The notes under the pieces are model-generated. The model made no database searches. It was not told where the DNA came from and was given only the letters and a program-made list of their open reading frames with translations. Made by a program: the position numbers and the translations under genes. From an uncultured Opitutales bacterium (GTDB lineage Bacteria; Verrucomicrobiota; Verrucomicrobiia; Opitutales; Seribacteraceae): 64,000 nucleotides of DNA. Shown in pieces: positions 7,679-26,900 of this stretch; position 1 is the stretch's first letter, and each line of letters opens with the position of its first letter. Location of the stretch: contig CAJQKB010000090.1 of NCBI GenBank assembly GCA_905478775.1, positions 1-64,000 of the forward strand, read 5' to 3'.

Positions 7679-9463
7679 ATGCTTGGTAAGAAAAGCACCA
7701 TAGGTATTTACGATTGCATTGAAGGGCAATTTCGTATGCTCGATAAATTCCCCTTTATTGTGGGATGCATGGGAAATGCAGACTGGCAAGTACCCGGTGG
7801 AGAAGGGTGGGAGGGAGCCTGTATGGTCAAGAAGTCGGGCAGTGCCTTTCGAATTGTACCGAATAAAAAAGGAGATGAGCGCCTTTTGGTAAATGGGGGT
7901 CCATTTGCAGAGCCTTTTAATGTGGAAGACGATGAAGTTTGTACCCTTCAATTTATGGGATATCCATTAGTTGTCTTTGCTGGAAAGGATCCGAAGTCTT
8001 GGGCGGATCAGATTCAAAAAGGTCAATGGATCCTTGCAAACGGACGCACGGGCACAGACTATGCACAGTGTAGTCGATATGAAATTTTAGAAAAGATACA
8101 GGAATTTGGTGCGGATCTTTCAGAATGTGCGATCAAACCAGTTGGGTTAGATGTTCCGTTCTGGGTGGTTCATTTGGTGGAATTCTTGCAAAGACCTGAG
8201 GAGGAGGAAGAGGAAGAAGAGGCATTATACCAAGAGGAAATTGTCGTTGATCCGGATCGTGGCGAATTTACATGTCCGACTTGTTGGCTAAAATTTGATC
8301 GTGCCGATGTGCTCAGTATTGCGGTTCATGAAGACCTGAGAGGGGACCGTAAATTGGGAGAAGATGCAATGCTTCGTTTCGTACCAACTGAGTTTAATTC
8401 AAAGGGACAAGCGATGGATGCAATGGGGTTACCCACCACTGATGTTGCCTGTGCCCATTGTCACCGAAAACTGCCCCCCGGTTTTATGGATGTATCTCAC
8501 CATATTTTTTCTATTGTGGGGGCACCAAGTTCGGGTAAATCTTATTACCTCAGTGTTTTAGTCCGTCAGTTACAACGAACCCTTTTTAGAGAGTTTGGAA
8601 TTGCTTTCCGTGATGCAGACCCGAGTTGTAATGCGATTTTAAACTCAATGAAAAATCGACTCTTCGCGGGGAGTAGTTCAGCAGATGCAATGTTGATCAA
8701 AACTCAACTTGAGGGTGAAATGTATGAACGATTACAGAGGCACGATCGAGTAGTGGCATTACCCCGTCCATTTATATTCAGTTTATCTGACCCACGGGGT
8801 ACTGGACATGACTGTTCGCTCATTTTCTATGATAATGCAGGGGAACACTTTGAACCGGGGATTACCAATGAAGAAAGCCCGGGTACTTTACATGTAGCGA
8901 GTTCTTCGGGGATCTTTTTTCTTTTTGACCCAGTTGCCAGTCCGGAATTTCGACGTGCACTTAAGGGGCATGATGACCCGCAATTTTCTATGGATGGAGG
9001 AGGGAAGAGATTGGACCAGCAAGATACGATCATGGCTGAACTGGAAATCCGGGTAAAACAAAATCAAAATATCAGCATTGCAGATAAAATTGATGTACCC
9101 CTTGCGGTGATGATTGGAAAGTGTGATATTTTGCGAGACCAGTTGGACTGGGAGCGAATTCTTTGGCCTGTTAAGGATAAGAAATTAGACCTTGATATTG
9201 TAGAGAAGAATTCCGAGATTTTACGGGAATACATGATGGATATGCATCCGTCGATAGTGGCCAATTCCGAAGCACTCTCCCGTAATGTACGTTATTTCCC
9301 TGTGAGTCCATTTGGGCACAGCCCTGAGCGGGTTGAATTAAATGGACAAAAATACATTGCCCCAGATCCAGACAAATTGGACCCTGTAATGGTAGAAATT
9401 CCTACCTTGTGGGTACTTCATCATGTCGAACCAGAATTGTTGCCCGTAGTCTCCGGTACCTAA
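7679..9463 (+). CDS. double-GTPase-family (DO-GTPase-like) NTPase with zinc ribbon and N-terminal FHA-like region
   Basis: A 594-residue soluble protein with no membrane helix. Residues about 20-105 resemble a degenerate FHA-type beta-sandwich (FIVGCMGNADWQV, then LLVNGGPF and VEDDEVCTLQF). An acidic run (EEEEEEEE, about 175-182) links to a split zinc ribbon with Cys199, Cys202, Cys258 and Cys261 (CPTC and CAHC). The NTPase core has a Walker A at 281-288 (GAPSSGKS), a G3-type DNAG at 385-388 followed by Glu389, and IGKCDIL at 479-485 where the usual [NT]KxD would be, giving GKCD. This order matches the double-GTPase families described from bacterial conflict systems, which sit beside GAP1 proteins; the next gene is such a protein. 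The segment 150-170 may be GYF-like. I infer that it is the cytoplasmic switch of the gene block. The substrate (GTP or ATP) is not proven. Confidence 0.75.
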   Translation: MLGKKSTIGIYDCIEGQFRMLDKFPFIVGCMGNADWQVPGGEGWEGACMVKKSGSAFRIVPNKKGDERLLVNGGPFAEPFNVEDDEVCTLQFMGYPLVVFAGKDPKSWADQIQKGQWILANGRTGTDYAQCSRYEILEKIQEFGADLSECAIKPVGLDVPFWVVHLVEFLQRPEEEEEEEEALYQEEIVVDPDRGEFTCPTCWLKFDRADVLSIAVHEDLRGDRKLGEDAMLRFVPTEFNSKGQAMDAMGLPTTDVACAHCHRKLPPGFMDVSHHIFSIVGAPSSGKSYYLSVLVRQLQRTLFREFGIAFRDADPSCNAILNSMKNRLFAGSSSADAMLIKTQLEGEMYERLQRHDRVVALPRPFIFSLSDPRGTGHDCSLIFYDNAGEHFEPGITNEESPGTLHVASSSGIFFLFDPVASPEFRRALKGHDDPQFSMDGGGKRLDQQDTIMAELEIRVKQNQNISIADKIDVPLAVMIGKCDILRDQLDWERILWPVKDKKLDLDIVEKNSEILREYMMDMHPSIVANSEALSRNVRYFPVSPFGHSPERVELNGQKYIAPDPDKLDPVMVEIPTLWVLHHVEPELLPVVSGT

Positions 9464-9482
9464 TTAGATTGGGTTTCCTTTA

Positions 9483-12400
9483 ATGGCTCAACAACTCATT
9501 TTTACCAGTACGCCCCAGGGTTTAGAACCTGGACGTACTGGTTATTGTACCGTTGCTCGGCACAAGGACTTAAGGCATCGGCTCGTCCGGGAACTCGAAA
9601 GGTTGAGTGTCTATGATTTTGGACAGCAAGCGGGAGGCACCCGGGTTGCAATCTCAATTTTTCGAAAGATTATATTAGGGTCCGAGGAATTTTATGTTCT
9701 CACTAAAATTTGTGACGCGGGGCTTGATTATACCAATCGAACCAACTACTTGGCCCATCATTTAATTTTGGATGGCTTTGAAATTGCTACCTGTCCATCC
9801 CCCGCAGAGATTTTTCTTAATTGGAATGGATGGAAGAGTAAGTGGGAGGAGGATGCACGTTATCTAACGCCGGGGGAGGAAATTACTCTAACTGATTATA
9901 AATCCAGCGGATTGATACCCTGTAAAAATTGGTTAAGTTTTACCAATGACCCTGGCAATGCGGCGACCCTTGTTTCTCCGGGATTGGTCCCTCCCATTGT
10001 CTTAGAAAATAGCCCCGCAAAAAGTGAACATTTATTACAGTTATTTGCTGAATCTTCTGCTTTGTTGAAGTTATCTTTGGATGCATGGGATTATTCCTTT
10101 ACCACATTCTTACAGGGGAATGATGATATAAAATCTTTTGCCTGGGTCGGGATTGAAGGACAGCCGGCGGGAGAACGATTGAAACAAGGAGGCTTGCGGA
10201 ACTACATTGATTTACAAAATTGGACATCCAGTTCAATTGCAGATGAGGTGGACCCCGGTCTTGCCCATGTGGCTCGAAAAGGTCCTAACGTTGCCCCCAC
10301 TAAGAGAGTGAAGAATGCAACCTCTTCTAATACCCGCTCTCCTCTCAGTCAAAAACAAGTTGAGCAAATTAAGGGTGCAAATTCAGGATACTTGAGCACC
10401 GCTCCGAGTGGGTCGACCGTTAAGGCTCAGGAGGCTTCCACCAAAAAAGAAAAAAAGAAAAGACCCTGGCTATTGCAATTAGCTGTTATTTCGACCGCAT
10501 TGTGCTTGCTGGGTGCATTAATTGTAGGATTGGCGTACAACCTTGGAGATTGGTTTAAAAAAGAGGAACCCCCTGTAAATCAAGTAAATAGCGTAGTGCA
10601 AGAACAAGATGAAGGGGATAATCTTTCAACTGTAAATTCTGTCGTTCCCGGTGCATTTGCTCAATTGGATCAAATTGAATATTTAAAAATTGCCCAAAAG
10701 CACCCCTATTTACGCTGGGTTAGTGTTGATGTGGGAACCGATGAACCTTTCCAGATTAATATTAATGACGACCAATTTGATCGGTTTGAAGAAACTTTGG
10801 AGAAAAGTCAGGAGGGGGATGAATTAAAAGTAGTGCTTACAGAAAGGGAGGGAGAGATTGTTTTTGATGAACTTTCTATGGCTCCTGCACCCGAGGATCG
10901 TGGTCGAGCCCAGCAAATATCTTTTAATGAGGAGGAAACAATTGCCATTTCTGAAGAGGGGGATCAGGTCTCCTTCGTGGTGGGAGACGAAACTTTTTCC
11001 TATGACTTACGTCGTGCCCAAGGCAACGAAGCAAACAGGCTCAGAAAGTTAAACAAACTTTTACAGTCCGGGCAAAAAACGCCCCTTACTCTTAGGCTTG
11101 AGGGATCGCGGGTCGTTCACATCGAACCCTTTGAATTACCGGACGATAAAAAGATTGATGATTCAAATCTTGCCAACACTGCCAAGCAGAGGGGAAAGCC
11201 AATGGTACTTGAGCAAGTAAAAGGAAAAGGCTCTGCTTATTTTGAACCCGAACAAATGAGGATTCAATTACCAGTAAATGGTACTAGTCGAAAAGCCTAC
11301 ACCTTCAAAGAAGACGAGAGTGCAAAAATGAAAGACCTCTTCGACTTTCTTGAAAAAGGAGAAGAGGGAATCGATTTAAATATTCGCTTAAGCGAGGATG
11401 GTGAGGAAATTACTTTTCTTGATTTTGAGTTTCCGGAAGAGAAAATTCGTCCATCGGCTGAAGAACTTATTTTATCTCCCAGTTCTTTACTCTCAGAAAA
11501 AAAATTCCTCTTTTGGATACCGGGAGTGGAAAATAATGGAAAATGGAGAATTGATAATTCTAAAAAGTCATTCGTTTATAACGATTCCGAAACGGCCGAT
11601 ATTTTGCTTTCTTTATTTCGCGAGTTAGCGAAGAAATCGACTAATCCAGTTGCCTGGATGACGGACTACCAGAAAGGTTCATTATTTACTAATAATCAGT
11701 TTGAGAAAGAGTCTCTTGTCGAGGAATTCAGCTATGAATATAAATTGAGCCAGCACCCTTTAGACCCAGTCAAAATTGCCAACATATCTTTTAAGTCCGG
11801 GCAGAGTTATTCCTTTGATTTTGAAATAACGGAAGGAAAAAGCATTGAAATTTCATATGGCTCTAATCACGCTTGGAATTCATTAAACAATGGAAAGCTT
11901 ATTCGATTGCCCCTGCTTTCTTCCGCTGGTGGATGTATTGATTTATTTTTATTATCTCATCAACACGCCAACCTGACAGACCTTTCAGAAGTGGGTCAGG
12001 ATTATGACCTGACTCGAAAAGCGTTATCCGTTTCTGACGAGTTGTTGCGCGATGGAATGTTTCAATTTTTATCGGAGGGGGAGAATAAATTACACCTTAC
12101 TTATTCAGTTCTGCCCAATTCCCCTCATGCCTCAAAGGTTTTCTTTAACGAACCTGTCTGGCGTGATTTTATCGATTCTACAACGATGAAATTAGCGGGA
12201 TTACCGACTGCACTAGTTCAATTAAACCCATCCCGTCCCTTGGACGCACAGGTTGAACTGGACTTAGATTACTTTCGTGGGATTTCAGAAGATTTTCTTA
12301 CAGAAAGGCAGAGGTGTGAAGAGAAATTAAGTCAGTTGGGCAGTGCATTTCCGAACCCTGAAGTTTATAAAAATTTAGTAACTTATGGAAGTGAGTACCC

Positions 12401-13232
12401 TAATTTGCTTACCTTTCAGCCTGGTACCCCCTTTTCCTCCTTTGCTTACAAATTACCCCTTTTATTGATTCAGCAAAGTTTTTATTCCTGGGATGAGGTT
12501 CGATTTAACAATTTAAAAGGAGAACTAGACCTCGCTTATAATAATGCAGAATTACTTTCTGACCCTGCCCTTTTTTCTTTGTACTGGACCCAATTAGGCG
12601 AAGTGGTGGACCAATACATCTCGGACAGCATACAAAAAGACTTTAATTATAAAGCGGACAAGGCATTGAAAGATATGAAATTGCTTTTTGACTTTTTGAC
12701 CTTAATTCTTCGCACAGAAAGAACATTGGGAATAAACGAGGGCGAATTATTGAAAAACCTGCAGGGTATCCGTTCTAAACTTGCCTCGCCCTCCGTTGAG
12801 AATCCACTCGGGTCGATCAATAAAGAAATTCGTGGGTTATCGAGTCCGCAGTTAAAAGAAGCTTTTGACCGGTACTACAAAAATTATCAGAATCAGCAAA
12901 GAGAATTGATTCCTCCCACGAAGCTTACTTTTGAAACTTTGGGTCTGGCTCTTTCGACAATTTCAGACTTAGGCAAAAATATAATCTACAAGGAAAAGGA
13001 ATCGGAGATTAGGCAATATCAATTTTGGGTTCAAAATTTTGCTTCGATTAATCAAGAGATTTTAGCCAAGCAGGAAGATATTATTAATTCGCTTCCCTTG
13101 GACTCTGCGGAACGAATTAAAAGAATTATATCAGAAATCCCCTGGACACTGGCAGTCTATAAAAGGACCTCAAATGGACAATATGTAAAGCAATCCGATT
13201 TTTTACGGCTTGCTCCTCCGTCCAAGTTTTAA
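9483..13232 (+). CDS. GAP1-N2 domain transmembrane protein (GTPase-associated protein 1)
   Basis: A 1249-residue protein starting 19 bases after the GTPase gene. Residues 1-about 115 match the GAP1-N2 pattern: QLIFTSTPQGLEPGRTGYCT, then DAGLDYTNRTNYLAHHLIL, a signature found next to double-GTPases. Residues about 115-260 look like the GAP1 middle region. A basic stretch (KKEKKKRPW) precedes one membrane helix at about 328-352, which predicts a cytoplasmic N-terminus and about 890 residues outside the membrane. The extracytoplasmic part has acidic repeats around 'ITFLDFEFPEE' and 'IVFDELSMAPAPEDRG', suggesting repeated domains of about 110-150 residues, and a helical C-terminal third. Typical GAP1 proteins are soluble and end in GAP1-C, so this membrane-spanning layout is unusual. 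I infer that it connects the GTPase to envelope components. The periplasmic part resembles nothing I know. Confidence 0.7.
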   Translation: MAQQLIFTSTPQGLEPGRTGYCTVARHKDLRHRLVRELERLSVYDFGQQAGGTRVAISIFRKIILGSEEFYVLTKICDAGLDYTNRTNYLAHHLILDGFEIATCPSPAEIFLNWNGWKSKWEEDARYLTPGEEITLTDYKSSGLIPCKNWLSFTNDPGNAATLVSPGLVPPIVLENSPAKSEHLLQLFAESSALLKLSLDAWDYSFTTFLQGNDDIKSFAWVGIEGQPAGERLKQGGLRNYIDLQNWTSSSIADEVDPGLAHVARKGPNVAPTKRVKNATSSNTRSPLSQKQVEQIKGANSGYLSTAPSGSTVKAQEASTKKEKKKRPWLLQLAVISTALCLLGALIVGLAYNLGDWFKKEEPPVNQVNSVVQEQDEGDNLSTVNSVVPGAFAQLDQIEYLKIAQKHPYLRWVSVDVGTDEPFQININDDQFDRFEETLEKSQEGDELKVVLTEREGEIVFDELSMAPAPEDRGRAQQISFNEEETIAISEEGDQVSFVVGDETFSYDLRRAQGNEANRLRKLNKLLQSGQKTPLTLRLEGSRVVHIEPFELPDDKKIDDSNLANTAKQRGKPMVLEQVKGKGSAYFEPEQMRIQLPVNGTSRKAYTFKEDESAKMKDLFDFLEKGEEGIDLNIRLSEDGEEITFLDFEFPEEKIRPSAEELILSPSSLLSEKKFLFWIPGVENNGKWRIDNSKKSFVYNDSETADILLSLFRELAKKSTNPVAWMTDYQKGSLFTNNQFEKESLVEEFSYEYKLSQHPLDPVKIANISFKSGQSYSFDFEITEGKSIEISYGSNHAWNSLNNGKLIRLPLLSSAGGCIDLFLLSHQHANLTDLSEVGQDYDLTRKALSVSDELLRDGMFQFLSEGENKLHLTYSVLPNSPHASKVFFNEPVWRDFIDSTTMKLAGLPTALVQLNPSRPLDAQVELDLDYFRGISEDFLTERQRCEEKLSQLGSAFPNPEVYKNLVTYGSEYPNLLTFQPGTPFSSFAYKLPLLLIQQSFYSWDEVRFNNLKGELDLAYNNAELLSDPALFSLYWTQLGEVVDQYISDSIQKDFNYKADKALKDMKLLFDFLTLILRTERTLGINEGELLKNLQGIRSKLASPSVENPLGSINKEIRGLSSPQLKEAFDRYYKNYQNQQRELIPPTKLTFETLGLALSTISDLGKNIIYKEKESEIRQYQFWVQNFASINQEILAKQEDIINSLPLDSAERIKRIISEIPWTLAVYKRTSNGQYVKQSDFLRLAPPSKF

Positions 13233-13287: not shown

Positions 13288-16200
13288 GTGAATATTGACC
13301 GTTTAATTGATCGCATCGAAAAAGCTCTTCGTGAGGATGGAACTACCGATCCAGTATTTCATGCATTGGCGAAGGAATATGCGAAATTTCGAACTCAAAT
13401 TGATGAAAGATTAGAGCACTGCGTAACTCTGATTCGTTCCGGTAAAGACTTTGCTGCCCGTGAACTTGCGGAACAATCTCCAGATGTACTTACACTTATG
13501 GAAAAACTTTCCTTTGCCAATGATGGTAAATGGAAAAAAGAATGTGAAGAGAAGGGACTTTATGTCGGACCCACATGGGCAGATGAGCATGTGGATTTGC
13601 TCAATGGATTATACGATAAGGAAATCACAGAGGACAGCCCACTTTTTCGTGAATATCGTACTGCGGCACGAAGCCGGGACCAGGAAAAAACTTTTAAGGT
13701 GTTAAAGATGATCTTGAAAGCAAATCCAGATCATGGTGCTGCCAAGAGACATTTCGGTCAATTAAGTGTAAAGATTCTAGAGGATAAAATTAAGGAATTA
13801 ACGCAGTTAATCACAGCGGGTCGAGAAGCAGAGTTTCTTGATCTGATGATTGATATTGAGGATACCGATTGGGTGGTGCAACCCAAAGGAGATGAATGGG
13901 AAAATGCAATTGCAGTTCGAGAAGGAGTGGAGCGAAGAAATGCAAAGGTACGATTGGAGCAAATTTTGGTCGAGATTGCTTCCTACAGAGCTGCGGATGA
14001 CTGGAAGGGATCCCTTGCTTTAATCGGAGAATTTTTTAATTTGGCCCAGGAGCATAACCTGGAAAATGAATTAGCTGAGGATGACATCAATGTATACAAC
14101 GAATACAAGGAATGGTCTGAAGAATTAGCGGAGGACGCGAAATCAGAGCGTGAACTCGAGGGCATGATCTCTCGTTTTAAGAACCGCCTTGCTGAAATGC
14201 ATCAGGTGGACAGTCAGGGAGGAAAAACGTTGGAGGTTTACCTGGAGGAACAAAACGAATTGCGCAAATTTCGTCAGGAATTTCAAGACCTTGGTAAATC
14301 GCTCTCTGCAGAGATTATGATGGACCTGCAAAAAGCAGAGTCCCATGTGAAAAATCGTATTCTTCGCCTTCGTGGCCGGACTAAGAGAATCTGGATGGCG
14401 GGTGTTTTTGCGTTCGTTTTAGTTGCGATTGGTGCAGTGGCAGGACTTTGGTGGTTGAAAGGTTTTTGGGACGCCCGCTCCGCTGCAGAAGCGGTTTTGG
14501 AGGTGCCCAATCCCTCACAACAGTGGGAGAAGTTATCTGCCTTTGTAGGGAATTACCCTGATTATCTAGAGGATGTCAAGGTTCGCAAGTTTGTGGATCA
14601 AGCAGTGGAGGAAGTTTTTCGAGATGCGGGTGCAAATTTAGTTTCAGAAAGTCAGGACGAATTTTTGCTCAATACTCAGGATAAAAGTCTTTTACCTATT
14701 TTAAAAAAGGAGGACATTGAACGGAGAAGGGGTAATGTGGTTGCCTCGATGTGTGGCAAAATCCTTGAAGATCTTGATAATGATCCAAATTTTCAGATTC
14801 GGGATGCCAAAAGATTTTTAGAATTATTTGAGAGTGCACCGCGAATTCGAAAGAATGATAAAGGAGAAGATTTACCCTTAAACGAGGTCGATTATTATCG
14901 TTTCCAGGACAATAAATTAGTCTTGGACAAATTACAGGAGATTGCCGCATTTTTGGCTCGGATCGAGGATACAAATGATCGAAAAGGAGATCGGTTTAAT
15001 AATTTAAAGAAGGAGGTTTTAAACTTTGATGCAAAAGTGCTACAAGCATGGAAAGCCTTCCGGGATTCCGGAAAGGCGGATCATGGCATTCTTGCTCAGG
15101 AAAAATACCTCGAGGAATTGGATGAAGAAACCCGTGGTTTTTCCGGATCAGATGCGATTGACCCCAATGATTATCGTGAGGTCAGGGATGCGATTCGACA
15201 ACTTAAGCAAACTTGGAAGGGTTATTCTAAAGAAGTGGAAAATAAGTCCGGTTCGTCTTACGATCAGTTGCTCAATCAAGCCGATCAATTACTGGGGAAA
15301 AGTAAAAAAGCCCAATCTCGGGATGAGAAACTTGCTTTCCTCAGGCAAATGTCAGACTCATTGAGTAAGATTACGGAATTGAACGGCAGTTCAACCGATC
15401 AGGAGCGAATGTCTAGCGCACAGGGCAGAGAATTTAAAGAATTAGTGAAGGCACAAAAGGAATCAGTCGGAGCGTTGGGCCAATTAGGAGAAGTGGAGGG
15501 AGATTTAGGGAAAGCCCAAAACTTGGACGAGTATTTTTTTGCTTTGGAAAAACTTTTGCAAAATGATGCATTTGAAAAAACAAAAGCTTCCCTGGTCCGT
15601 ACTGTACTTTCTCATCGAAAGAAATTTTCAAATGAAAACGGTGAGTTAAGAAGCCGTCTCTTTATAGAGGGACCTGCCGAGATATGGGAAAAAGTGGAAT
15701 CGGGTAAGATTACACTCCAGCCCGATGAATCTCGAACAGAATACGATCATATTATGGCCCTTCTTTCCCGCCCCGATCTTCGCTCTATTTGGAGCTATCA
15801 ATTAGTGGAATGTACTCCATTCCAATCCGGTGCATCCGGGGTTTATTCAACCCAAAAAAAGCAGATGATGTCCCTGTACTCCTATGGTCCGGTGAAGGAG
15901 GAGGAAGTGGCACAAAAATTTGATGAACAAGGACAGCCTATTGCCAACCCGATCAAAACTAATGTGCAAGTAGGCGAATTTCATTGGAATGGAAAGGTGG
16001 AGGGCCGAGAATTTCAAACCACCATTTTTGGCGGAGGAATGAAGGGGCTTGCAGTTGAGGGGGGCGAATTGACTCCTGAATCTACTTTTTTGCAGCAACA
16101 AATCGAACGCAGACTAGACCCTAATACAAAAAGTGTTGCCGGACCTTTGATGGAAATGCTTGAGGTTGTGATTGCCGAACAATCAATTTCCCCCCTGCTC

Positions 16201-16734: not shown

Positions 16735-16736
16735 GT

Positions 16737-17904: not shown

Positions 17905-18876
17905 ATGGACGGAGGAGTAGGATTTGATGAACCTGAGTTAAGTTGGTCGACGCAAGATATTGAGAACAAAATTGGATTTAGTGGCGGTAGATATACCGAT
18001 ACAAATGCATTTTTCACTTTTTTAGTGGGGCTCATATTATCAACACTCTTTTTTTTAGTATTGGAGTTTGTGATTGGAGATTCTGGAACTGCCGCCGAGT
18101 GGAAAGAACAGAACTCGGAAATGGTAACACTGGAAGATGGTACGCAAGAGGAACAAGTGAGGGACATTCCCTTACATATAGCATTATCTGATAAATTTAT
18201 AAATCGAGGACTCGGGGGGTATTTAATGGGTGCGGGAATCACCATGCTTTTTTTCTGGGCTCTTGCGATTCTGTTTGTAAAGGGTAGGAAAGTGAGTTTT
18301 CAAAAGAAAATTCTGGCTCTCAATCTGATCCCCCAGGACCCCAACTTTTTTCTTAATAATGCGACTGCCCGAGATGCGTTGTTACGAATTCGTGGTCAGG
18401 TTGATGACCCGAAGCACTTTTTGCTTTTAAACCGAATTGATGTCGCCTTATCGAATTTGCAGAACATCGGAGAAATTAGTGAGGTCGCAAGTTTGACCAA
18501 TGCACAGGCTTCAATTGATGAAGATCAAGTCTCAGCCAGTTACAGTTTAATCAACGGATTTAATTGGGCGATTCCAGTTCTCGGCTTTATTGGTACAGTT
18601 CTTGGATTGGGGTCTGCGATTGGAGAATTTGGAGTGACCATACAGCTCGCTGACGATGTTGACAAATTGAAGAATTCATTGACTGATGTGACCGGGGGTC
18701 TATCCACTGCGTTTGATACTACCCTACTTGGATTGGTAGGCTCGATTGTTGTGCAAATGGTAATGACCTTTCGAAAACGGCAAGAATTTTTACTTTTGGA
18801 CGAGTGCAATGAGTATTGCCAAACTTATGTTTTAGCAAAACTTAAGCTTGAAAAAACGGGAAGAACTCGTTCGTAA
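17905..18876 (+). CDS. MotA/TolQ/ExbB-family proton channel protein
   Basis: A 323-residue protein with four predicted membrane helices at about 35-57, 106-127, 219-240 and 265-290. The last two carry the family pattern: PVLGFIGTVLGLGSAIGEFG, then LSTAFDTTLLGLVGSIVVQMVM, including the Thr/Ala pore helix and the GL...I stretch of TolQ/ExbB. In the family, five such subunits surround two TolR/ExbD helices and convert proton flow into mechanical work. The N-terminal extension of about 30 residues and the periplasmic loop between helices 1 and 2 are longer than in TolQ. Two TolR-like genes follow immediately, which supports a complete motor. A weak Shine-Dalgarno motif (aaagga) lies 10 bases before the ATG. 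It is not an ordinary Tol or flagellar operon: no tolA, tolB, pal or flagellar genes are near. Confidence 0.85.
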   Translation: MDGGVGFDEPELSWSTQDIENKIGFSGGRYTDTNAFFTFLVGLILSTLFFLVLEFVIGDSGTAAEWKEQNSEMVTLEDGTQEEQVRDIPLHIALSDKFINRGLGGYLMGAGITMLFFWALAILFVKGRKVSFQKKILALNLIPQDPNFFLNNATARDALLRIRGQVDDPKHFLLLNRIDVALSNLQNIGEISEVASLTNAQASIDEDQVSASYSLINGFNWAIPVLGFIGTVLGLGSAIGEFGVTIQLADDVDKLKNSLTDVTGGLSTAFDTTLLGLVGSIVVQMVMTFRKRQEFLLLDECNEYCQTYVLAKLKLEKTGRTRS

Positions 18877-18918: not shown

Positions 18919-19965
18919 ATGGGGAGAAGTAGTCGAAATAGCGAGCAGAGGGTTAGTTTCTTTGCCTTTCAGGATATTATAACTGCAGTAATTGGTATCC
19001 TAGTTTTAATCGCTCTTATCCTTGCCCTTCAGGTCAACCCAAAGCGAGAAAATGAAGGCGATAGTCCGGGTAATAATACTGCTCCTGTTGAATTAATTGT
19101 GGGAGCAAATGAGGGGGGAGGGAACGCCACAATTGTGGTGGCAAGTGAGTTTAATGCGACTCAAGTAATCGAAGAGATTGCAGCATTGCACCAAGAAATA
19201 AGCGAAGAGAAAAAAGAATTTTTAGTCAAAAGAGAGAAGAAGAATAGCGAAATTGAACAACTGTCGGAGGAATTGAGAAAGCTTAATTTAGAACTTCAAG
19301 TTTTTAAAAAAAAGCTTGGGATTGAAGATTCAAATGATTCGAAAGAAACAAAAGATAAGATTGAAAGTTTAGAATTACTTATGGACCTGGCAAGGGTTCA
19401 AAAAAATGAACTAAATGAGGAGAAGAAGGGACTGGAAGATAAAATTAATGCCCGGGTATTACGGTCTTTAAAAAACCTCTCCGAACTTGAATTACAGGAG
19501 CTTGATTCCAACCTTAATTCACAGGTCGAGCAGTTAGAATCACAAGTTGAAAATGAAGTCCGGGTAATTCCTAAAGAAAATAATCAGGGAGAAAAGCCGG
19601 TCCTGGTAATTCTAGGATCATCCGAATTTACAATAGGAATTTTTAATGGGGGGCAAAGAACGATACCAGTGAACTCGGCCAACTATTATCAAAAACTTGG
19701 TGGAGCCCTGACTTCCTATGATAAGAATAAAAATTTCTTTGTTTATTTCTTTCGTCCTTCGGCATGTCAGTTAACCATTACCAATGTACCAGGTAGAAAT
19801 GGGACGATTGAAAAGAATTTATTTGATTTACTATGTGACCCTAAAAATAACCTGACCCGTATGCTCGGGTACAAATACGGATTCGAGCCAATCCATGAAG
19901 AGGCAGCTGTCTTGTTTACTGACAAGATTGCTGATCCATTTGTTGAGTTTTTTCCTAATCCATGA
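18919..19965 (+). CDS. TolR/ExbD-like motor partner protein A (single helix, coiled coil, periplasmic domain)
   Basis: A 348-residue protein with one N-terminal membrane helix at about 20-40. The helix is headed by Asp19 in FQDIITAVIGILVLIALIL, the position of the proton-carrying Asp of TolR, ExbD and MotB. A long coiled coil follows (about 90-220, Lys/Glu/Leu-rich heptads), then a C-terminal alpha/beta domain that opens with KPVLVILGSSEFTIGIF near 233. No OmpA-type peptidoglycan-binding motif is visible, unlike MotB or Zorya ZorB. The helix aligns without gaps with that of the next gene product, so the two are paralogues. I infer that both pack inside the upstream TolQ-like ring. Confidence 0.75.
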   Translation: MGRSSRNSEQRVSFFAFQDIITAVIGILVLIALILALQVNPKRENEGDSPGNNTAPVELIVGANEGGGNATIVVASEFNATQVIEEIAALHQEISEEKKEFLVKREKKNSEIEQLSEELRKLNLELQVFKKKLGIEDSNDSKETKDKIESLELLMDLARVQKNELNEEKKGLEDKINARVLRSLKNLSELELQELDSNLNSQVEQLESQVENEVRVIPKENNQGEKPVLVILGSSEFTIGIFNGGQRTIPVNSANYYQKLGGALTSYDKNKNFFVYFFRPSACQLTITNVPGRNGTIEKNLFDLLCDPKNNLTRMLGYKYGFEPIHEEAAVLFTDKIADPFVEFFPNP

Positions 19966-20005: not shown

Positions 20006-20920
20006 ATGGCACGCGAAGAAGAAGAGGGTGGAAGCTTGGATATGTTGCTCGATACTTTGTGCAATACATTTGGAGGGATTATTTTAATTGCTCTCTTACT
20101 TGCTCTCAGTGTGAACAAAAAAAGCGTCGAATTGTACGATAAATTAGTTCAGACCGATGACAATCAATCTGAACTTATCAGGGAACGTGAGCAGTTACAA
20201 AATTCATTACTCGACCTCACCGATGAAAACATTGAGATTTTAGAAGACTTGGAAGATGATTCTTATTCCAAAAGAGAGGAAATTGAAGAGATAAAGGATA
20301 ATTTAGACGATTTAAATAGCGATTCTTTCGCCCTTGAAAAATTAATGCAGCGTGAACAAGTAAAACTTGATGAACTCGAGGATAGCGAAGTAACAATTGA
20401 AAAAGAACGTTTAAGTATGGAGGAAGAATTAAGTCGTTTGGAAACGATTCTTGCCCACCAGGAATTAAGTAAAGAGTTGAAAAAAAAGCCCTATCGTAAG
20501 GTCAGCCTTCCTCAACAAAAAGACACGCGTAAAAAGCCACTCCCTGTTATTGTGGCACATGGTAAAATGTATCCGATGATTTCTCTGGGGATCGGTTCGG
20601 TTGAAAAGAATGAAGATGGATTGGTATGGAATCAAACTCCCGACAAGCGATTCCAGGTAAAAGTCGATCCAAGCAGGGGAGTCGATCCGATGAATGATGA
20701 TGCATTGGATTTGTTTCTCTCCTCGGTTGGAGATGCCCCCCGTTTAGTTCGTCAAAATTTCTTTTTGAACCTCTTTGTATTTTCCGATTCAGAAAATTTT
20801 GCGATTTTTAATAAAATTCGAGACGAAGCAGTTTTAAGAAAATTAGATTATAATTGGATTCCCATTGCTGAACTTCCCCTCGTTCTGCGCTCGGACAATG
20901 TTCCTTGGAAAGTGCAATGA
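20006..20920 (+). CDS. TolR/ExbD-like motor partner protein B (paralogue of the preceding gene)
   Basis: A 304-residue protein with a short acidic N-terminus, a membrane helix at about 17-36 headed by Asp16 (LDTLCNTFGGIILIALLL), a coiled coil at about 45-150, and a C-terminal domain beginning KPLPVIVAHGKMYPMISLG near 172. Asp16, Gly23 and the LIAL motif fall in register with Asp19, Gly26 and LIAL of the protein encoded just upstream. The C-terminal domains are only loosely similar (shared KPxxVI start). TolR and ExbD normally function as homodimers, so two diverged copies suggest a heterodimer or alternative stators. The ATG at 20006 has no clear ribosome binding motif. A gap of about 260 bases follows. 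Confidence 0.75.
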   Translation: MAREEEEGGSLDMLLDTLCNTFGGIILIALLLALSVNKKSVELYDKLVQTDDNQSELIREREQLQNSLLDLTDENIEILEDLEDDSYSKREEIEEIKDNLDDLNSDSFALEKLMQREQVKLDELEDSEVTIEKERLSMEEELSRLETILAHQELSKELKKKPYRKVSLPQQKDTRKKPLPVIVAHGKMYPMISLGIGSVEKNEDGLVWNQTPDKRFQVKVDPSRGVDPMNDDALDLFLSSVGDAPRLVRQNFFLNLFVFSDSENFAIFNKIRDEAVLRKLDYNWIPIAELPLVLRSDNVPWKVQ

Positions 20921-21181
20921 ACAGAATGTTTTTCTTCAATTTGGCCGGGTAAGAATCACGAAATTTTTGGTAAGAAATCAAATTTTAGAGTAATTCCGAT
21001 TATTTGTCCAAATTTGGTTACTACTGGCAGAACTATTAAAATGGATTTACTCTTACCAGTTCAGTTTCCGAACGATCTTATTCGGTCCGCATTACTATTT
21101 CTTTTTCGTAATGTTTAAAATGACTCAAATGACTGCTCTTTTACCTTGCCTAAGCTACCAACTGCTCGAATTATAATCTTT
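20921..21181. other. 261-base gap inside the gene block
   Basis: This is one of the two largest gaps in the window. It is AT-rich, contains no ORF I would call and no strong hairpin with a T-run. A TATAAT at 21172-21177 lies only 4 bases before the next ATG, too close to be a normal -10 for that gene. A promoter for the downstream subset (21.2-26.9 kb) may be here, but I cannot point to a convincing one. Confidence 0.3.
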
Positions 21182-21436
21182 ATGTCGAAAGAACTTCTTA
21201 TTTCTCTTATTTTGGGCACATTTTTACTGGGTTGTGTCCTTTTGGGTTTGGTTCAGACGAGTTTACTTTCCAGCCCGTTTTTTCTGCTATTTGGCTTCGC
21301 GATTATACTCGGTCAAATCGTAATGGCTCACTTAGCATTTAATCAGTATAAAAACCTTTCAGTCCAAACCACTAAAGAAAGTACCAAAAATGAAGAAGGA
21401 AGAGAAGAACGAGGAAGCGACGGATTCGACGATTGA
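21182..21436 (+). CDS. small two-helix membrane protein, homologous to the N-terminus of the toroid protein downstream
   Basis: An 84-residue protein; I chose the ATG at 21182 over an upstream TTG at 21146. Two membrane helices lie at about 5-24 and 32-53, and the second ends in HLAF at 50-53. The same plan and wording occur at residues 1-49 of the 631-residue toroid protein encoded at 24024 (MSxK..LSL.L...LG, LLSS, then HLAF at 46-49), so the two N-termini are homologous. In the toroid protein a third helix follows in the same chain; here the third helix is at the start of the next ORF, which overlaps this one by 47 bases in the +1 frame. This looks like a split version of a three-helix anchor. 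It may work together with the next gene product. Confidence 0.6.
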   Translation: MSKELLISLILGTFLLGCVLLGLVQTSLLSSPFFLLFGFAIILGQIVMAHLAFNQYKNLSVQTTKESTKNEEGREERGSDGFDD

Positions 21437-23945
21437 AGAGACTGCGGTAGACGAGTCGCAGTCTGAAGAACGGGAACTCAATCCAAAGCATAGAACCATT
21501 GCATTATCCAGCTTAGCGGCAGGTTATGCTTTGGCATTAGGATTTGGAGCCCTTCTCTATTGGGGATCCCAACAAGACCTACAGGTCGTAGTAAACGAAA
21601 CTATTACCGAAGAGGGCGAAGTCGTTGGTGCTTCTGAGGGAGCAGAGATAGAATCTTCTGTCATTACCTTAACGGGAGGCACTAGCATACCTTGGCCGAT
21701 CGGCAAACTTTGGGTAGACCCTGGGTACACGGCGATTGATGGAGATGAAGATCTAACCGCATTTGTCGAAACAGTCTCTTTCGTTGATGTTTCTACTCCT
21801 GGGCAATACAAAGTTATTTACACTGTCAAAGATCCTAAGTCTGGAGAGGTATCAGATTCAGTGGAGCGATTTGTTACGGTTAACGCAGGTGGCTTTATTG
21901 CTGGTGCAAATGTCGCTTATAATGACCGACTTGATGGTGTGATATTGGATGATAAAAGAATAACCGCTGTGATTGGTGACGACGATGATGATATCGTTTA
22001 TGTGGACAACGATGATCGCCATCTCCGACTCGCAGGGAATGACTTAGGTAACGGAAGGGTAGTCGGAGGAAATGGTGGGAACGGTCGAATACATGGTGGC
22101 CGAAATCGCACTGTGATTGAAGACGATGTTGATGTCGGCTTGCTAGATCGTAGATTAGCTAGATTAGACGACAATGAACTTATTATCATCGATGATAATG
22201 ACGATGACTTAGTGGCCCGATTGGATCGACAGGATATCGGATTGGACCGGGGCGGAAATGATCGGGTTGATGTGGGAAATTTTGTTCCCGATGCTCGCCG
22301 CGGAAATTTTAATGATGAAGAACTGGGTGCCGTGGGAGAATTTGATAAAGATGGTGCCGGTTTTGGAAAGGGCTCGATGCCTGGAGTAGGGAAAGGGTCT
22401 GAGGTTTTTGCATACAACTTTCCTTCACAGGGTGTAGGGGCAGGAATTGGAAGTCCAGCCGTGGGAGCTGCAGCTGGATTTGCTGGGCTTGGAGCAGGAA
22501 TTGGGCAGGCGGTAATGAATGGTGAAGCAGTTCCCGCATTGGGAGGAATCGGAACCTACACGCCCGCTGCACCCAGTCAACCGGAAGGTCCTGATTCAGA
22601 TAACGATGGAATTTCGGATGCAATGGAATCTACTTTTCGGACGAACCCTCAATCCAATGATACGGATAAGGATGGGGTAAGTGATGCGGACGAGGTCAAG
22701 GGAATGTCCAATCCGCGTGATCCCCGTAGTAAACCGGGCACACCTGCTCCCGGTGCTGACAGTGATCAGGACGGAGTCCCCGCCTCACTGGAAGCTCTTT
22801 ACGGTCTGGACCCATCCAATTCGGACAGTGATGGCGATGGATTTACTGACGGAGAGGAAATCTCTGCGATGACTAGTCCCACAAACCCGGCCAGCAACCC
22901 TGGTGAAATGGGGGGGCCAGCTCTTGCAGTTGCACCCGGAGTCGCGGGTGGAGTGGCCGGATTGGTCGGAGGTGCCGGAGCCGGTGCAGCAGCCGGTCTG
23001 GTTTCAGGTAGGGTCACTCATCCTCTCGGATTGGGAGTGGCAGATGTCGGGGTCGGGGTTGGAATCGGTATTAACGATGGCGACGGAGTTGGACGCGACG
23101 ATTGGGATTACGATCACCTTCCCAAAGATGGAAATCTTTACATTATGATGCATGTGGATGGAAGTGGCTCAATTCTAAGCACAAGAAAGGCGTTGGACGA
23201 GATGAAAGATACTCTTCTTAAAAATGCCTTACTTCCTTATTACAAGAACGACGAAGATCTTTACAATCGCCGGGTACTCGTGGTGGATGGTGAAGGAGAA
23301 CGCACACTTAAATTCTTTGCAGATGCGGCAAAGAAAGAAAATGTGTTAGCACTTGTCTTCCAAGATGAAGCCCAACCCGCATATCACCTTCCCAATTTCA
23401 ATCGTAAACCAGAAGATCACTACATGGACGATTTGAATGATCTTAAAAAAGGGTTAAACGGATACGGTGGACTGTACCGTGGAATCATGTTCCAAGTCGA
23501 CCGAGGGAAGACTTTTGCCAAATCATTTAAGGAATTTGTGGAAAACGCCTGGCGTGGAGATGGTTATCTTTCCGGTGCAGGTGAAAACTTGAAGCCGTAC
23601 TACTGGCAGGAAAATGGTGACAATATTCGCAACCGTGATGGGATTGTATTCAGTGACGAATATCATGTAAATTCGGAAGGTGATCCCGCTTATTACATGA
23701 ATTTGATCATGGAAGCATCCCGTAAAATTGGTTTGGATCTTGGGAAATACGGCGGAGGACAGGAAGATGGTCGCTATAATGCAAAACTAAGCGGTAATTC
23801 TTCCAGCACTTCTTCTTTGAACGAAATGTGCCCTATCAAAAAGGACCGCAAGGCAAACCCATCAATAACTGCGAAGAGTGCTAATGGTAAGACAGTCGCG
23901 TTTTGCTGCAAGGGTTGTAAAAATAAATATGCATCGGCTGATTGA
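21390..23945 (+). CDS. membrane-anchored mosaic protein: Ig-like, TSP3 repeats, vWA-like and C-terminal YHS-like domains
   Basis: An 851-residue protein. After a charged start, one membrane helix lies at about 36-58. Then come a DUF5011-type Ig-like domain (about 92-165, GYTAIDGDEDLTAFV ending in ERFVTV); an Asp/Arg-rich tract (about 180-310) and a Gly-rich tract; thrombospondin type 3 repeats (about 400-500, DSDNDGISDAMES, DTDKDGVSDADEV, DSDGDGFTDGEEI) that should bind calcium; a vWA-like domain (about 582-787) with a MIDAS-type DGSGS at 590-594; and a C-terminal 39-residue metal-binding YHS-like domain with MCPIKK, FCCKGC. The order is very unusual. I infer an extracytoplasmic adhesion or sensing component. 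The start overlaps the preceding ORF by 47 bases. The YHS part normally binds metals in cytoplasmic or periplasmic proteins. Confidence 0.75.
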   Translation: MKKEEKNEEATDSTIEETAVDESQSEERELNPKHRTIALSSLAAGYALALGFGALLYWGSQQDLQVVVNETITEEGEVVGASEGAEIESSVITLTGGTSIPWPIGKLWVDPGYTAIDGDEDLTAFVETVSFVDVSTPGQYKVIYTVKDPKSGEVSDSVERFVTVNAGGFIAGANVAYNDRLDGVILDDKRITAVIGDDDDDIVYVDNDDRHLRLAGNDLGNGRVVGGNGGNGRIHGGRNRTVIEDDVDVGLLDRRLARLDDNELIIIDDNDDDLVARLDRQDIGLDRGGNDRVDVGNFVPDARRGNFNDEELGAVGEFDKDGAGFGKGSMPGVGKGSEVFAYNFPSQGVGAGIGSPAVGAAAGFAGLGAGIGQAVMNGEAVPALGGIGTYTPAAPSQPEGPDSDNDGISDAMESTFRTNPQSNDTDKDGVSDADEVKGMSNPRDPRSKPGTPAPGADSDQDGVPASLEALYGLDPSNSDSDGDGFTDGEEISAMTSPTNPASNPGEMGGPALAVAPGVAGGVAGLVGGAGAGAAAGLVSGRVTHPLGLGVADVGVGVGIGINDGDGVGRDDWDYDHLPKDGNLYIMMHVDGSGSILSTRKALDEMKDTLLKNALLPYYKNDEDLYNRRVLVVDGEGERTLKFFADAAKKENVLALVFQDEAQPAYHLPNFNRKPEDHYMDDLNDLKKGLNGYGGLYRGIMFQVDRGKTFAKSFKEFVENAWRGDGYLSGAGENLKPYYWQENGDNIRNRDGIVFSDEYHVNSEGDPAYYMNLIMEASRKIGLDLGKYGGGQEDGRYNAKLSGNSSSTSSLNEMCPIKKDRKANPSITAKSANGKTVAFCCKGCKNKYASAD

Positions 23946-24023: not shown

Positions 24024-25919
24024 ATGAGTACCAAGACCATACTTTCTCTTGTTCTTTCTTCGACCCTTGGGTTGGCGTTAATCGGTAATCTCATTGCCGG
24101 GAACTTGATTCTCTCTTCTGTTCTAGTCTTCACTGGTCTTGGTACCGGGATTCTGTGCCATCTTGCTTTTTTTGAAGAGAAGAAAAAAAAACCGCAGGGT
24201 ACTGGCCCGATTCCCTGGCTCAACTTAGGAATGTCCTATTGTTTACTTCTTCTCAGTTTGGGAGCTTTTCTTTTTCTTCTGATTTCTCCTTCTGAGTCTC
24301 GCCAGACAACTATCGCCAAAGCGGGTCAAGTGGCAGGAAACGAAACGGAGGGTTCCACCGTTCCCCAAAGTGAGCGTACGGATGTGGAATCCGGCGGTGA
24401 ACGTGCCCGTTTAGGCAGCAGTGGACGAGGGGAGGGTTTGGACGCACTTGGAGGTGCGAACGAGGACAATCAAAATGCCATGCGTGAAGCACAGGTTTTT
24501 AATCCGGCAATTGCAGGAGCAGATGACGGTGTTTCTGACCAGACCAAAATATCTTCTCAAAATATGGAGGAGAACATAGAACCGGGTGAGTTCGATCAAG
24601 GATTGTTCGACTCAAAAGATTTACTTCTCTCCCGGATTGGAATGGATGAAGAGAATAAAGATATTGGTGATCCTAATGCTTTGATTTTCGAAGAAAATGA
24701 AGATGATGCCCTTGCATTTGATTCGACAGTATTTAACGGGGCGGAAGACCCCAATGAAATTATTTCCAAAGCGAAAGGAGACAAAATAACTAATCTACGG
24801 GCTGCGGTAAACTCACTGGGAGTTTCCGTACCGAAGTCAATGAGCGGGCGATGCGACAAAGTGGGTCGGGTGGCAAGACTTGCCCGGGGAGGAGTGAAGA
24901 ATCCGGATCGGGTTGAAACTTCTGTGATTAAGGCACTGAACTGGTTGAATCAGGATCAAAATGCAGACGGGTCTTGGGGGAATAATGCGAAAGGAGCGAT
25001 GACTGGATTTGCCCTTCTTTGTTATTTGGGACATTGTGAACTGACTGACTCTCCCGAATATGGGGAGGCGGTAGCGAAGGGGATTAAGTATCTGGTTGAA
25101 CTTGGTGATGAAAAGGATGGCTGGCTTTACATTACCAACAATAAACACGGATCCGCCTACGCGCATGGCATTGCAACCTACGCCCTTGCGGAAGCTTATG
25201 GCATGACTGAGAAGGATTTCATACTCCCGATCTTGCAAAAAGCAATCCATCGAATTGTCGCCGGACAAAAACAGGATGGCGGATGGGTCTACATGGAAGA
25301 AAGGCCCGGTGTGGATAATCTACGATTCGTAGATTTTGGAAAAAATGAAAAACAATCGAGCGATACATCCGTGAGTGGTTGGCAATTCCAGGCCTTAAAG
25401 GCGGCGTATAATACGGGAGCAATTTTCCCTGGTATTGAACCTGCATTGGAAGCTTCGGTCAAAAATTTTTATCGGGTCTATTCCTCTGGAAATGGAGGGT
25501 TTGGGTATCGTAAGGCATCCGATGCAAAGAGTATAAAACACAAGCTAACCGGAGTGGGTTCGCTTGGTCTTCAATCATGGAAGCATGGGCATCCTTCCGA
25601 AGAGGAAAAGAGGGCAACTTTAAAAAAGGCAATGGAACATATCTTGAAGAATAACTTGGCAATGGATTATACGAGTGCGGATGCAAATTTATATTCCTGG
25701 TATTATGATGCCCAGGCCCTTTTTAATTATGGGGGAGCCTATTGGACTGCCTGGAATCGAAAGATGGAACCCATGTTGCTCAATTCTCAACTCGCAGACG
25801 GAAGTTGGCCTAAAGAGGGTGGGGGAAAGACTTCAAGTCAGGGTGGACAGGATGCAGAAGTCTATCGTACTACTCTTTGCACCTTGATGCTCGAAGTTTA
25901 TTATCGTTACGTCTATTGA
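24024..25919 (+). CDS. membrane-anchored alpha/alpha-toroid protein (prenyltransferase/squalene-oxidase repeat)
   Basis: A 631-residue protein with the best Shine-Dalgarno in the region (AGGAG, 11 bases before the ATG). Three membrane helices lie at about 4-22, 28-48 and 66-88, followed by a long disordered acidic region (about 95-270). From about 295 to the end come the repeats of the terpene-cyclase-like alpha toroid: SVIKALNWLNQDQNADGSWG, GFALLCYLGHCE, GIATYALAEAYG, QDGGWVY, ALFNYGGAYWTAWN and the closing EVYRTTLCTLMLEVYYRY. The DxDD and DCTAE catalytic motifs of squalene-hopene or oxidosqualene cyclases are absent, so it is probably a binding protein, as in the many PVC-group relatives. 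Residues 1-49 are homologous to the 84-residue protein at 21182. A short hairpin lies just upstream. Confidence 0.8.
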   Translation: MSTKTILSLVLSSTLGLALIGNLIAGNLILSSVLVFTGLGTGILCHLAFFEEKKKKPQGTGPIPWLNLGMSYCLLLLSLGAFLFLLISPSESRQTTIAKAGQVAGNETEGSTVPQSERTDVESGGERARLGSSGRGEGLDALGGANEDNQNAMREAQVFNPAIAGADDGVSDQTKISSQNMEENIEPGEFDQGLFDSKDLLLSRIGMDEENKDIGDPNALIFEENEDDALAFDSTVFNGAEDPNEIISKAKGDKITNLRAAVNSLGVSVPKSMSGRCDKVGRVARLARGGVKNPDRVETSVIKALNWLNQDQNADGSWGNNAKGAMTGFALLCYLGHCELTDSPEYGEAVAKGIKYLVELGDEKDGWLYITNNKHGSAYAHGIATYALAEAYGMTEKDFILPILQKAIHRIVAGQKQDGGWVYMEERPGVDNLRFVDFGKNEKQSSDTSVSGWQFQALKAAYNTGAIFPGIEPALEASVKNFYRVYSSGNGGFGYRKASDAKSIKHKLTGVGSLGLQSWKHGHPSEEEKRATLKKAMEHILKNNLAMDYTSADANLYSWYYDAQALFNYGGAYWTAWNRKMEPMLLNSQLADGSWPKEGGGKTSSQGGQDAEVYRTTLCTLMLEVYYRYVY

Positions 25920-25955
25920 CGATTTTTAATTTTTTTCTACTATGAAACTAGGCTT

Positions 25956-26900
25956 ATGAAGTTTCTTCCAATCGTTTTCTTCTTTTTCTCTTTCTTTTTA
26001 TGGGGAGAAGATTTCATGATTAAAAAGGCAGGAAATTTAAAGGGGATTCTAAATGCTAAAGGAGATGCTTGGATCGAGGTTAAGGAGGATCAAGGTTTGC
26101 TCGAACGTTATCTTGCACCGTGGCAGGGAGGTTCGCCTGCTCGAGGGGGCGGTTTTGATTTAAAGACGCTTGGTGTTTTTAAAGAACTCGTGGTCGGAAA
26201 CCGGGTACGATTGGATTGGTTTTGGGATGGTCATCTAAGAGTTCGTTCAATCAAAATTATCAATCCATTTAAAAGAAATGGGGTTATGAACGGCATTCTT
26301 GTTCAAAAAGGAGACAGATGGATTGACGTGGAAAGTGAGGATAGTTTTTTACCCTGGCGGTTTTATCCAAAATGGGTTGGTGGTATGCCTGAATCTGGTG
26401 GTGGGTATAATCCGACCACCTTGGCATTCTTTGATAAGTTTGATGTGAACGAGCCAGTTCGTATCGTTTGGAGTTATGACCACCGTCCCCGAATCGAGCG
26501 ATTTATAGAACAAGAAATAGAGGATGTATTTGTACCTTTTTATGAAGGCAAAACAATTCCTGTCGGTGTAATTAATTCACAATCAGTTCGTCCCTCGGTT
26601 AATCCATTTGACCAAGCGGTCCCGGCACCCCAAGCCAATCCATTTGATCAAGCGGTTCCGGCACCTCAAGCCAACCCATTTGATCAAGTGCCTAACTCCA
26701 GCCCTTTTAACCCCTTCGATTCACCAAGTTTACCTTCGAGTAATCCGTTTGATGAGACGGGCAATAGTAAGCAACAACCTAAATCGCCCTTGAGTAATAA
26801 CCCATTCGATAATGTTCCTGCCCCAGCGGGGAAGCAATCCAATCCCTTTGAAAATGTTCCCTTACCGGGAAACCCATTTGATGCTTTGCCTAAGAACTAA
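25956..26900 (+). CDS. secreted protein with duplicated beta domain and eight NPF motifs
   Basis: A 314-residue protein with a signal peptide (residues 1-16, FLPIVFFFFSFFLWG). Two tandem domains of about 85 residues follow (NLKGILNAKGDAWIEV, and MNGILVQKGDRWIDV), each ending in an arginine-rich strand. From about 215 to the end the protein is a low-complexity tail with eight NPF motifs, seven as NPFD and one as NPFE, mostly joined by Val/Pro/Ala linkers. Two copies of a 12-residue unit, NPFDQAVPAPQA, are encoded by near-perfect 36-bp DNA repeats. In eukaryotes NPF is the ligand of EH domains; no such partner is known to me here. The gene converges with a minus-strand gene 4 bases away, so it ends the block. 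I recognise no family for the duplicated domain. Confidence 0.65.
   Translation: MKFLPIVFFFFSFFLWGEDFMIKKAGNLKGILNAKGDAWIEVKEDQGLLERYLAPWQGGSPARGGGFDLKTLGVFKELVVGNRVRLDWFWDGHLRVRSIKIINPFKRNGVMNGILVQKGDRWIDVESEDSFLPWRFYPKWVGGMPESGGGYNPTTLAFFDKFDVNEPVRIVWSYDHRPRIERFIEQEIEDVFVPFYEGKTIPVGVINSQSVRPSVNPFDQAVPAPQANPFDQAVPAPQANPFDQVPNSSPFNPFDSPSLPSSNPFDETGNSKQQPKSPLSNNPFDNVPAPAGKQSNPFENVPLPGNPFDALPKN
26601..26690 (+). repeat. 36-bp tandem repeat, about 2.5 copies, encoding NPFDQAVPAPQA
   Basis: Copies start at 26601, 26637 and 26673; the third is partial. They differ at a few third-codon positions. The array encodes the first three of the eight NPF motifs and shows how the tail may have grown by duplication. 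Confidence 0.85.

Follow-up and report, generated by a model that had tools for sequence, protein, structure and literature searches.

A candidate GTPase-controlled envelope machine pairing a DO-GTPase/GAP1-N2 core with a TolQ/TolR-type motor

What does a bacterium do with a row of genes in which a GTPase of a family guessed to act as an immune switch shares its operon with a proton channel of the TolQ class? This question is raised by a 64,000-nucleotide stretch of DNA from an uncultured Opitutales bacterium (contig CAJQKB010000090.1), hereafter the window, in which open reading frame (ORF) calls place eleven plus-strand genes at positions 7679-26900, all in one direction and lettered A to K in order (Table 1). 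The first-pass annotation had described eleven co-directional genes separated mostly by gaps under 60 bases, and both statements are borne out: from A to K, the intergenic gaps are 19, 55, -4 (an overlap), 43, 42, 40, 225, -47 (again an overlap), 78 and 36 bases, with eight of the ten neighbouring pairs below 60. Our answer, which we hold at about even confidence, is that seven of these genes (A-G) encode a GTPase-controlled, proton-driven machine that spans the envelope and makes force.

Spread of the core and its linkage to a TolQ subfamily

To what extent is this row conserved? A TolQ alignment, run against a public collection of genomes, picked out 245 related places, and 79 distinct loci were read, related loci being mapped by six-frame hidden Markov model (HMM) search. 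Genes A-B-C-D-E-F-G occur in this same order in Verrucomicrobiota, Planctomycetota and Lentisphaerota, and the whole A-K order recurs at loci of three genera, namely the window's own (in other species) and two more of its family. In Desulfamplus, the row is either A-B-C-E-F-G, with no recognised D, or E-F alone. Gene A is present at 42 of the 45 loci from named genomes with at least 9 kb of sequence upstream of E, and the three loci without it (L066, L085 and L093) are all from Desulfamplus, in whose genomes the GTPase accompanies some versions and not others. Two TolR-like genes follow E at 62 of the 67 loci with enough downstream sequence, and the operon is found in the named isolates Brevifollis gellanilyticus NBRC 108608, Victivallis vadensis DSM 14823 and Desulfamplus magnetovallimortis. 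The core is thus a set of seven genes with the predicted products DO-GTPase, GAP1-N2 protein, membrane α-solenoid protein C, GYF protein, TolQ-like protein and two TolR-like proteins. One 14-kb locus (L143) is rearranged, with D-E-F-G upstream of A-B-C-D rather than downstream.

The strength of the linkage can be seen in 289 genomes of the phylum that are at least 90% complete. TolQ matches in these genomes split into two sets, 28 scoring at least 300 bits (the subfamily of E) and the rest at most 242 bits. While none of the 30 other TolQ-family genes tabulated lies near a DO-GTPase, 26 of the 28 E-subfamily genes are within ~10 kb of one. The exceptions are G175, in which the GTPase is on another contig, and G057, in which C, D, F and G stand alongside TolQ and the contig ends just upstream of C. 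All 27 genomes with an E-subfamily TolQ have the GTPase, 27 have the GTPase only and 235 have neither (Fisher p 3e-23, which, the genomes being related, is not a strict probability). Dependence is one-way, of E-subfamily TolQ on the GTPase and not the reverse. TolQ and TolR genes found mostly without the GTPase, the pattern that the first-pass annotation had named as telling against a single system, are clearly not what either count returned. It is likewise scarcely credible that the TolQ-TolR and GTPase-GAP1 genes are mere neighbours working separately. Such independence would account for the 34 of 60 GTPase loci that have no E-subfamily TolQ, but it sits badly with the same order in distant phyla, with the near-complete dependence of this TolQ on the GTPase, with the joint absence of A-J described below, and with GYF-toroid fusions found within the motor genes.

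The lower-scoring TolQ families of the phylum, many of ~500 amino acids (aa), were considered as part of the same system and are separate from it; at the five that were read, TolQ comes with a TolR-like pair of its own, and there is no GTPase. Such families, in which the TolR-like genes of the pair are unequal, are seen at L158, on contig 17 of the window's genome, and at L159-L162; the other-family TolQ of the window's genome, 352 aa long, is found in many members of the genus.

The GTPase core also occurs in other company. At L042-L044, A-B-C and a GYF gene stand alone, and in family f48 of the phylum (L129-L133 and L135) A-B-C is followed, directly or nearly so, by a PilM-like gene, with no motor. 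The PilM-like match has E < 0.01 at five of the six f48 loci and exceeds the Pfam cut-off at four (L131, L132, L133 and L135), being weaker in L130 and L129. At most f48 loci, a gene for a protein with a single transmembrane (TM) helix comes after the PilM-like gene, with sub-threshold similarity to PilO in two, and there is a short membrane gene too. In the window's genus, L047 and L048 hold a second, diverged copy of the system, in which, at L047, a trypsin-like protease replaces RDD as the fusion partner of GYF, and some genomes have up to three copies of the GTPase. Since motor, PilM-like and GYF-trypsin partners alternate, A-B-C appears to be a constant head set on exchangeable envelope modules, and because the same A-B-C set sits beside PilM-like genes instead of a motor, the core seems to attach to envelope machines. 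We tentatively extend this, as a possibility less secure than the machine itself, to a DO-GTPase/GAP1-N2/solenoid set that would be a general bacterial switch cassette for envelope machines (a TolQ-TolR-TolR motor or a PilM-type pilus platform) and a counterpart, of independent origin, to MglA with its control of gliding motors and pili; many of the supposed GTPase "conflict systems" in Planctomycetes-Verrucomicrobia-Chlamydiae (PVC) bacteria would then be such machines. If the GTPase-controlled machine itself is as we propose, the control of proton-driven motors in the envelope extends to a second, unrelated family of GTPases, and a class of the conflict systems predicted for Verrucomicrobia and Planctomycetes has to be read anew. 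A GTPase family that only sequence surveys have described so far, and that was taken, as a guess, for an immune switch, would then be tied to a physical machine.

Predicted architecture and proposed mechanism

How might the seven products work together? By HMM, A is a marginal match to Pfam DO-GTPase2 (26.6 bits, cut-off 27); the hallmarks of the DO-GTPase family, a Walker-B glutamate and a zinc ribbon, are present, and its motifs are conserved over homologues (P-loop GAPSSGKS, DNAGEHF with the family Walker-B glutamate, GKCD, and the CPxCW...CxxC zinc ribbon). Its relatives in L129 and L132 exceed the cut-off, and both have a clear FHA domain. Protein B, encoded directly downstream, is a GAP1-N2 protein (75 bits, Pfam cut-off 24), and D matches GYF_2 (45.5 bits) and RDD (66 bits) in Pfam, two GYF-type repeats being recognised by eye. 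Both B and C have one strong TM segment with a positively charged flank on its N-terminal side, which suggests a cytoplasmic N terminus and a large ectodomain. The structure of C, predicted with a mean predicted local distance difference test score (pLDDT) of 83, gave only solenoid-type chance hits against solved structures, none significant, and a profile search of solved structures returned no match for A or E. Between the window and L034, identity is 89% for A, 90% for E and 91-100% for the TM segments of F and G; it is 84% inside and 51% outside for C, and 68% in the cytoplasmic part and 29% in the ectodomain of B, which is the fastest-changing part of the system. This fall from the cytoplasm to the outside would suit an engine and a switch that stay fixed while the grip or sensor changes.

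On the motor side, E matches MotA_ExbB (33.6 bits, Pfam), terminates soon after its last TM helix at 323 aa, and conserves GTVLG and other Thr residues over its homologues. Proteins F and G have one TM helix each, in which an Asp (FQD19 in F, LLLD16TxCNTFGGI in G) is invariant in 21 of 21 homologues, and are paralogous to each other (hhalign probability 99%). We call them TolR-like because a single TM helix with an invariant Asp is encoded right after a MotA/TolQ/ExbB gene. The three sequences thus carry the hallmarks of the 5:2 proton-motor class, that is, a MotA/TolQ/ExbB channel subunit with single-TM subunits bearing a conserved Asp. In its predicted structure (mean pLDDT 81), G consists of the TM, a helix of ~120 further residues and a compact end domain; at 1.5 Å per residue, we estimate that the periplasmic helix would be ~18 nm long. 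A profile search of F and G against solved structures returned coiled-coil matches only, and a MotB/Pal-type end on G was rejected, as there was no structural match.

From the gene set, its order and linkage, the conserved motifs and the likely topology, all of which can be read in the sequences, we infer a complex, its 5:2 stoichiometry, the direction of its control and its output. Protein E would form a MotA/TolQ-type ring, with F and G as two unequal axle subunits, each providing a proton-carrying Asp, and the long periplasmic coiled coils of F and G would pass movement away from the inner membrane. The conserved cytoplasmic parts of B and C, together with the GYF protein D, would dock the GTPase A, whose GTP state would decide motor engagement, and the large ectodomains of B and C would reach a variable periplasmic or surface partner, to sense it or to grip it. 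In the window's family, H-J, with their toroid and Ig/TSP3/vWA-like protein, may be a surface-facing tool. The likely job would be to move, anchor or build something at the surface, be it in adhesion, gliding-like movement or polymer transport.

Several observations weigh against this machine. Neither F nor G matches ExbD/TolR or any other curated Pfam model, the end domain of G resembles no solved structure, no transducer of the TonB/TolA type was seen, and an SHLS motor-binding motif is missing from the TM helix of I in the 16 rows read. In addition, the core must also act motor-free at the loci without E. With such matches missing for both TolR-like proteins and for that end domain, anchoring to peptidoglycan or to an outer-membrane partner is a guess. 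Control might also run from the outside in, with E-F-G and the B and C ectodomains as a sensor of load or proton gradient that reports to the GTPase, which would act on cytoplasmic targets. Although the core exists alone, and FHA-like (A) and GYF (D) domains are typical signalling or adaptor modules, the operon conserves neither a cytoplasmic effector nor a transcription factor, and we find this decidedly improbable.

Comparison with described systems

Has a force-making machine controlled by such a GTPase been described before? The first-pass annotation knew of no described system with this set. Two pieces of it are in fact published (PMC7159879; PMC12204202), and neither paper joins them. 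The DO-GTPase and GAP1-N2 systems of Kaur, Burroughs, Iyer and Aravind (2020; PMC7159879) share with ours a GTPase family with a zinc ribbon, a GAP1-N2 gene directly downstream and a TM-anchored GAP1; they also share a linked double-GYF protein, fused in planctomycetes to trypsin or to a TM-rich region, and the trypsin form is seen here in L047. In contrast to our loci, the text of that paper has no TolQ/ExbB/MotA, RDD or PilM, and it describes neither protein C nor the TolR-like pair. Since the FNIII-repeat component of those systems is missing (no FN3 match in A-K by Pfam), we file ours as a variant and not as a typical member. As for their variable components, exchangeable motor and PilM-like modules were seen, and no classic effector domain. 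The second piece is the TPR-tolQ-tolR-tolR-vWA clusters of PVC bacteria, noted in 2025 (PMC12204202), which likewise have a helical-repeat gene, a TolQ-like gene, an unequal TolR-like pair and a vWA-like TM protein. However, genes for a GTPase, a GAP1 or a GYF protein go unmentioned in that paper, the SHLS motif in the TM helix of its vWA proteins is missing from I, and at most A-G loci G is not followed by an I-like gene. Compared by the text of the paper, these clusters may overlap in part with the A-G operon. The system thus combines two separately published kinds, and no paper joining both was found; the whole set is apparently undescribed in a literature searched mostly outside subscription journals. 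It looks like a machine for making force in the envelope rather than for phage defence.

The closest working analogy is MglA-AglRQS/Glt of Myxococcus xanthus, as a likeness of logic and not as membership. In AglRQS, one TolQ-like protein (AglR) works with two TolR-like proteins, AglQ and AglS (PMC9389320), and MglA counts AglR and GltJ (gliding) and SgmX (type IV pili) among its effectors (PMC12288465). Both systems combine a TolQ-like subunit with two unequal TolR-like partners that each bear a TM Asp, and both have a cytoplasmic GTPase, large envelope partners and modular reuse (Agl-Nfs in Myxococcus). However, MglA is Ras-like and has an MglB/RomY GAP complex, whereas the GTPase here is of the DO-GTPase2 family, and AglQ and AglS are short TolR proteins, whereas F and G have long coiled coils. 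Among the Glt and Mgl families, the one match in A-J is a weak one, of the TSP3 repeats of I to CglD (47 bits, cut-off 400). Zinc-ribbon and GYF domains are also attributed to GltJ; if so, this would strengthen the likeness to A and D.

The contrast with Zorya drawn in the first-pass annotation also holds when the defining features of Zorya are taken from PMC11890865. The motor is of the same 5:2 MotA-type class, and E gives weak ZorA hits over the TM core only. However, the long cytoplasmic C-terminal tail of ZorA is missing from E, F and G have no OmpA-like peptidoglycan-binding domain as in ZorB, and there is no match to ZorC, ZorD or ZorE. Membership in Zorya was rejected on the tail, the peptidoglycan-binding domain and the partners.

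Cassette boundaries, and envelope versus defence

Which genes of the window belong to this machine? Gene I encodes a surface Ig domain and TSP3 repeats (Pfam). The main family labels given in the first pass hold, except that no vWA model matches I, the sole basis for that label being a DGSGS motif resembling a metal ion-dependent adhesion site (MIDAS). Protein J matches a squalene-cyclase-type toroid (34.7 bits). While the A-G core is wider, H, I and most J are restricted to the window's family. Three planctomycete loci (L087, L098 and L116) have a gene for a fused GYF-toroid protein inserted between E and F, which independently ties the toroid to the machine.

Eight genomes of the same genus (L149-L156) are without A-J. 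They read fahA-aldH-K-L'-M'-degP' at this site, no part of A-J standing between aldH and K, which adjoin in all eight; although not all of the assemblies are complete, the empty site lies on contiguous sequence. Because the block is missing while K stays, A-J forms a single unit at one site, beside which K is a resident gene. Relocation of the cassette elsewhere in these genomes was rejected, since E-subfamily TolQ is absent from them: a TolQ search returned only another TolQ family in five (226-236 bits) and nothing in three, against 424 bits in carriers. The empty site by itself would fit gain as well as loss of the cassette. Gene K also follows J in L038/L039 and L040, from two other genera of the family, and this identical position favours loss. 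The single eleven-gene system of the first-pass annotation therefore stands in part. The GTPase, GAP1-N2, TolQ and TolR genes do belong together, and the check that it had proposed on co-occurrence and position finds A-J missing together in eight genomes and one fixed site in genus and family. An eleven-gene unit was rejected, as K remains where A-J is missing, and H-J are family-level additions. By this comparison of sequences, the unit in the window is the ten genes A-J (7679-25919), an accessory cassette, patchy within its genus, and not a housekeeping one.

Table 1. Features of the window and of other loci named in the text
Feature	Description	Position	Strand
A	DO-GTPase2-family GTPase; FHA-like N-terminal region, zinc ribbon, GTPase domain	7679..9463	+
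B	GAP1-N2 protein; cytoplasmic 1-327, one TM ~328-355, ectodomain 356-1249 (predicted)	9483..13232	+
C	Membrane protein, 1148 aa; predicted cytoplasmic α-solenoid 1-365, TM ~366-394, periplasmic helical and β domains	13288..16734	+
D	GYF-type domains fused to RDD membrane domain	16731..17861	+
E	MotA/TolQ/ExbB-type channel subunit, ~4 TM, separate subfamily	17905..18876	+
F	TolR-like subunit 1; TM motif SFFAFQDIIT..GI with Asp19, long coiled coil, C-terminal domain	18919..19965	+
G	TolR-like subunit 2; TM motif LLLDTxCNTFGGI with Asp16, ~120-residue periplasmic helix, C-terminal α/β domain (predicted)	20006..20920	+
H	96-aa membrane protein akin to N-terminal membrane part of J; family-specific extra	21146..21436	+
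I	TM-anchored; surface Ig domain, TSP3 repeats, DxSxS vWA-like region; family-specific extra	21390..23945	+
J	Membrane-anchored α/α-toroid (squalene-cyclase-like); final cassette gene	24024..25919	+
K	Secreted NPFD-repeat protein; outside cassette, resident neighbour of aldH	25956..26900	+
Gene after K	Lipoprotein-like	26905-28197	-
L129	f48 example of motor-less PilM-type locus	5453-8960	
L132	f48 example of motor-less PilM-type locus	6505-9777	
L047	Second, diverged system copy	2827-12947	
L048	Second, diverged system copy	87-11695	
L087	GYF-toroid fusion between E and F	10886-12727	
L158	Other TolQ family, own TolR-like pair	8008-11160	

Does such a cassette serve the envelope or defence? 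As proposed for DO-GTPase/GAP1-N2 systems by Kaur et al. (PMC7159879), it could be an anti-invader conflict system, with the GTPase and GAP1-N2 as a threshold switch, the B ectodomain as sensor and the motor as effector, through proton-gradient collapse or signalling. The fast evolution of the B ectodomain, the absence of the cassette as a block within the genus and the exchangeable modules next to the core all speak for this. However, the window locus has no nuclease, protease or pore effector, only a handful of defence-model (PADLOC) matches were found among 90 neighbouring ORFs of other loci, where the commonest Pfam matches are sulfatases and TPR proteins, and the cassette has one fixed site in genus and family. 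Moreover, the TolQ tree follows phyla: it requires 4 changes to account for 4 phyla, against a minimum of 3 and a mean of 27 after shuffling, which is unlike defence genes that move freely. We consider a conflict role unlikely. A defence island was rejected, the neighbours not being enriched for defence models, as was a phage origin, there being no PHROG match except a weak one in I.

The mostly vertical inheritance, the lack of effector domains, the large periplasmic scaffolds B and C and the non-defence neighbours would equally suit envelope upkeep or transport, in which the TolQR-like motor would do a Tol-Pal/Ton-type job (outer-membrane stability, secretion, or lipid or polymer traffic) and the GTPase would set its timing or place. 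Yet the window's genome also has seven MotA/ExbB-family, six ordinary ExbD and OmpA/Pal-type genes, which makes a basic Tol-Pal/Ton job unlikely for the A-J motor since such jobs look covered, and many close relatives live without A-J. Upkeep is therefore doubtful, though not far-fetched, and its mechanism differs little from that of the force-making machine proposed here. That genome has T2SSE/PilB-type ATPases as well. An envelope function for the GTPase-controlled machine thus rates clearly higher than defence, without the matter being settled. Between the roles raised in the first pass, an envelope machine is favoured, a housekeeping one is at odds with the patchy cassette, and a conflict role finds little support.

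Beyond the cassette, the secreted product of K ends in a run of NPFD-type repeats. The lipoprotein-like gene that follows on the minus strand is weakly similar to an LIC20035-type adhesin model and adjoins one degenerate and one full DegP-like protease.

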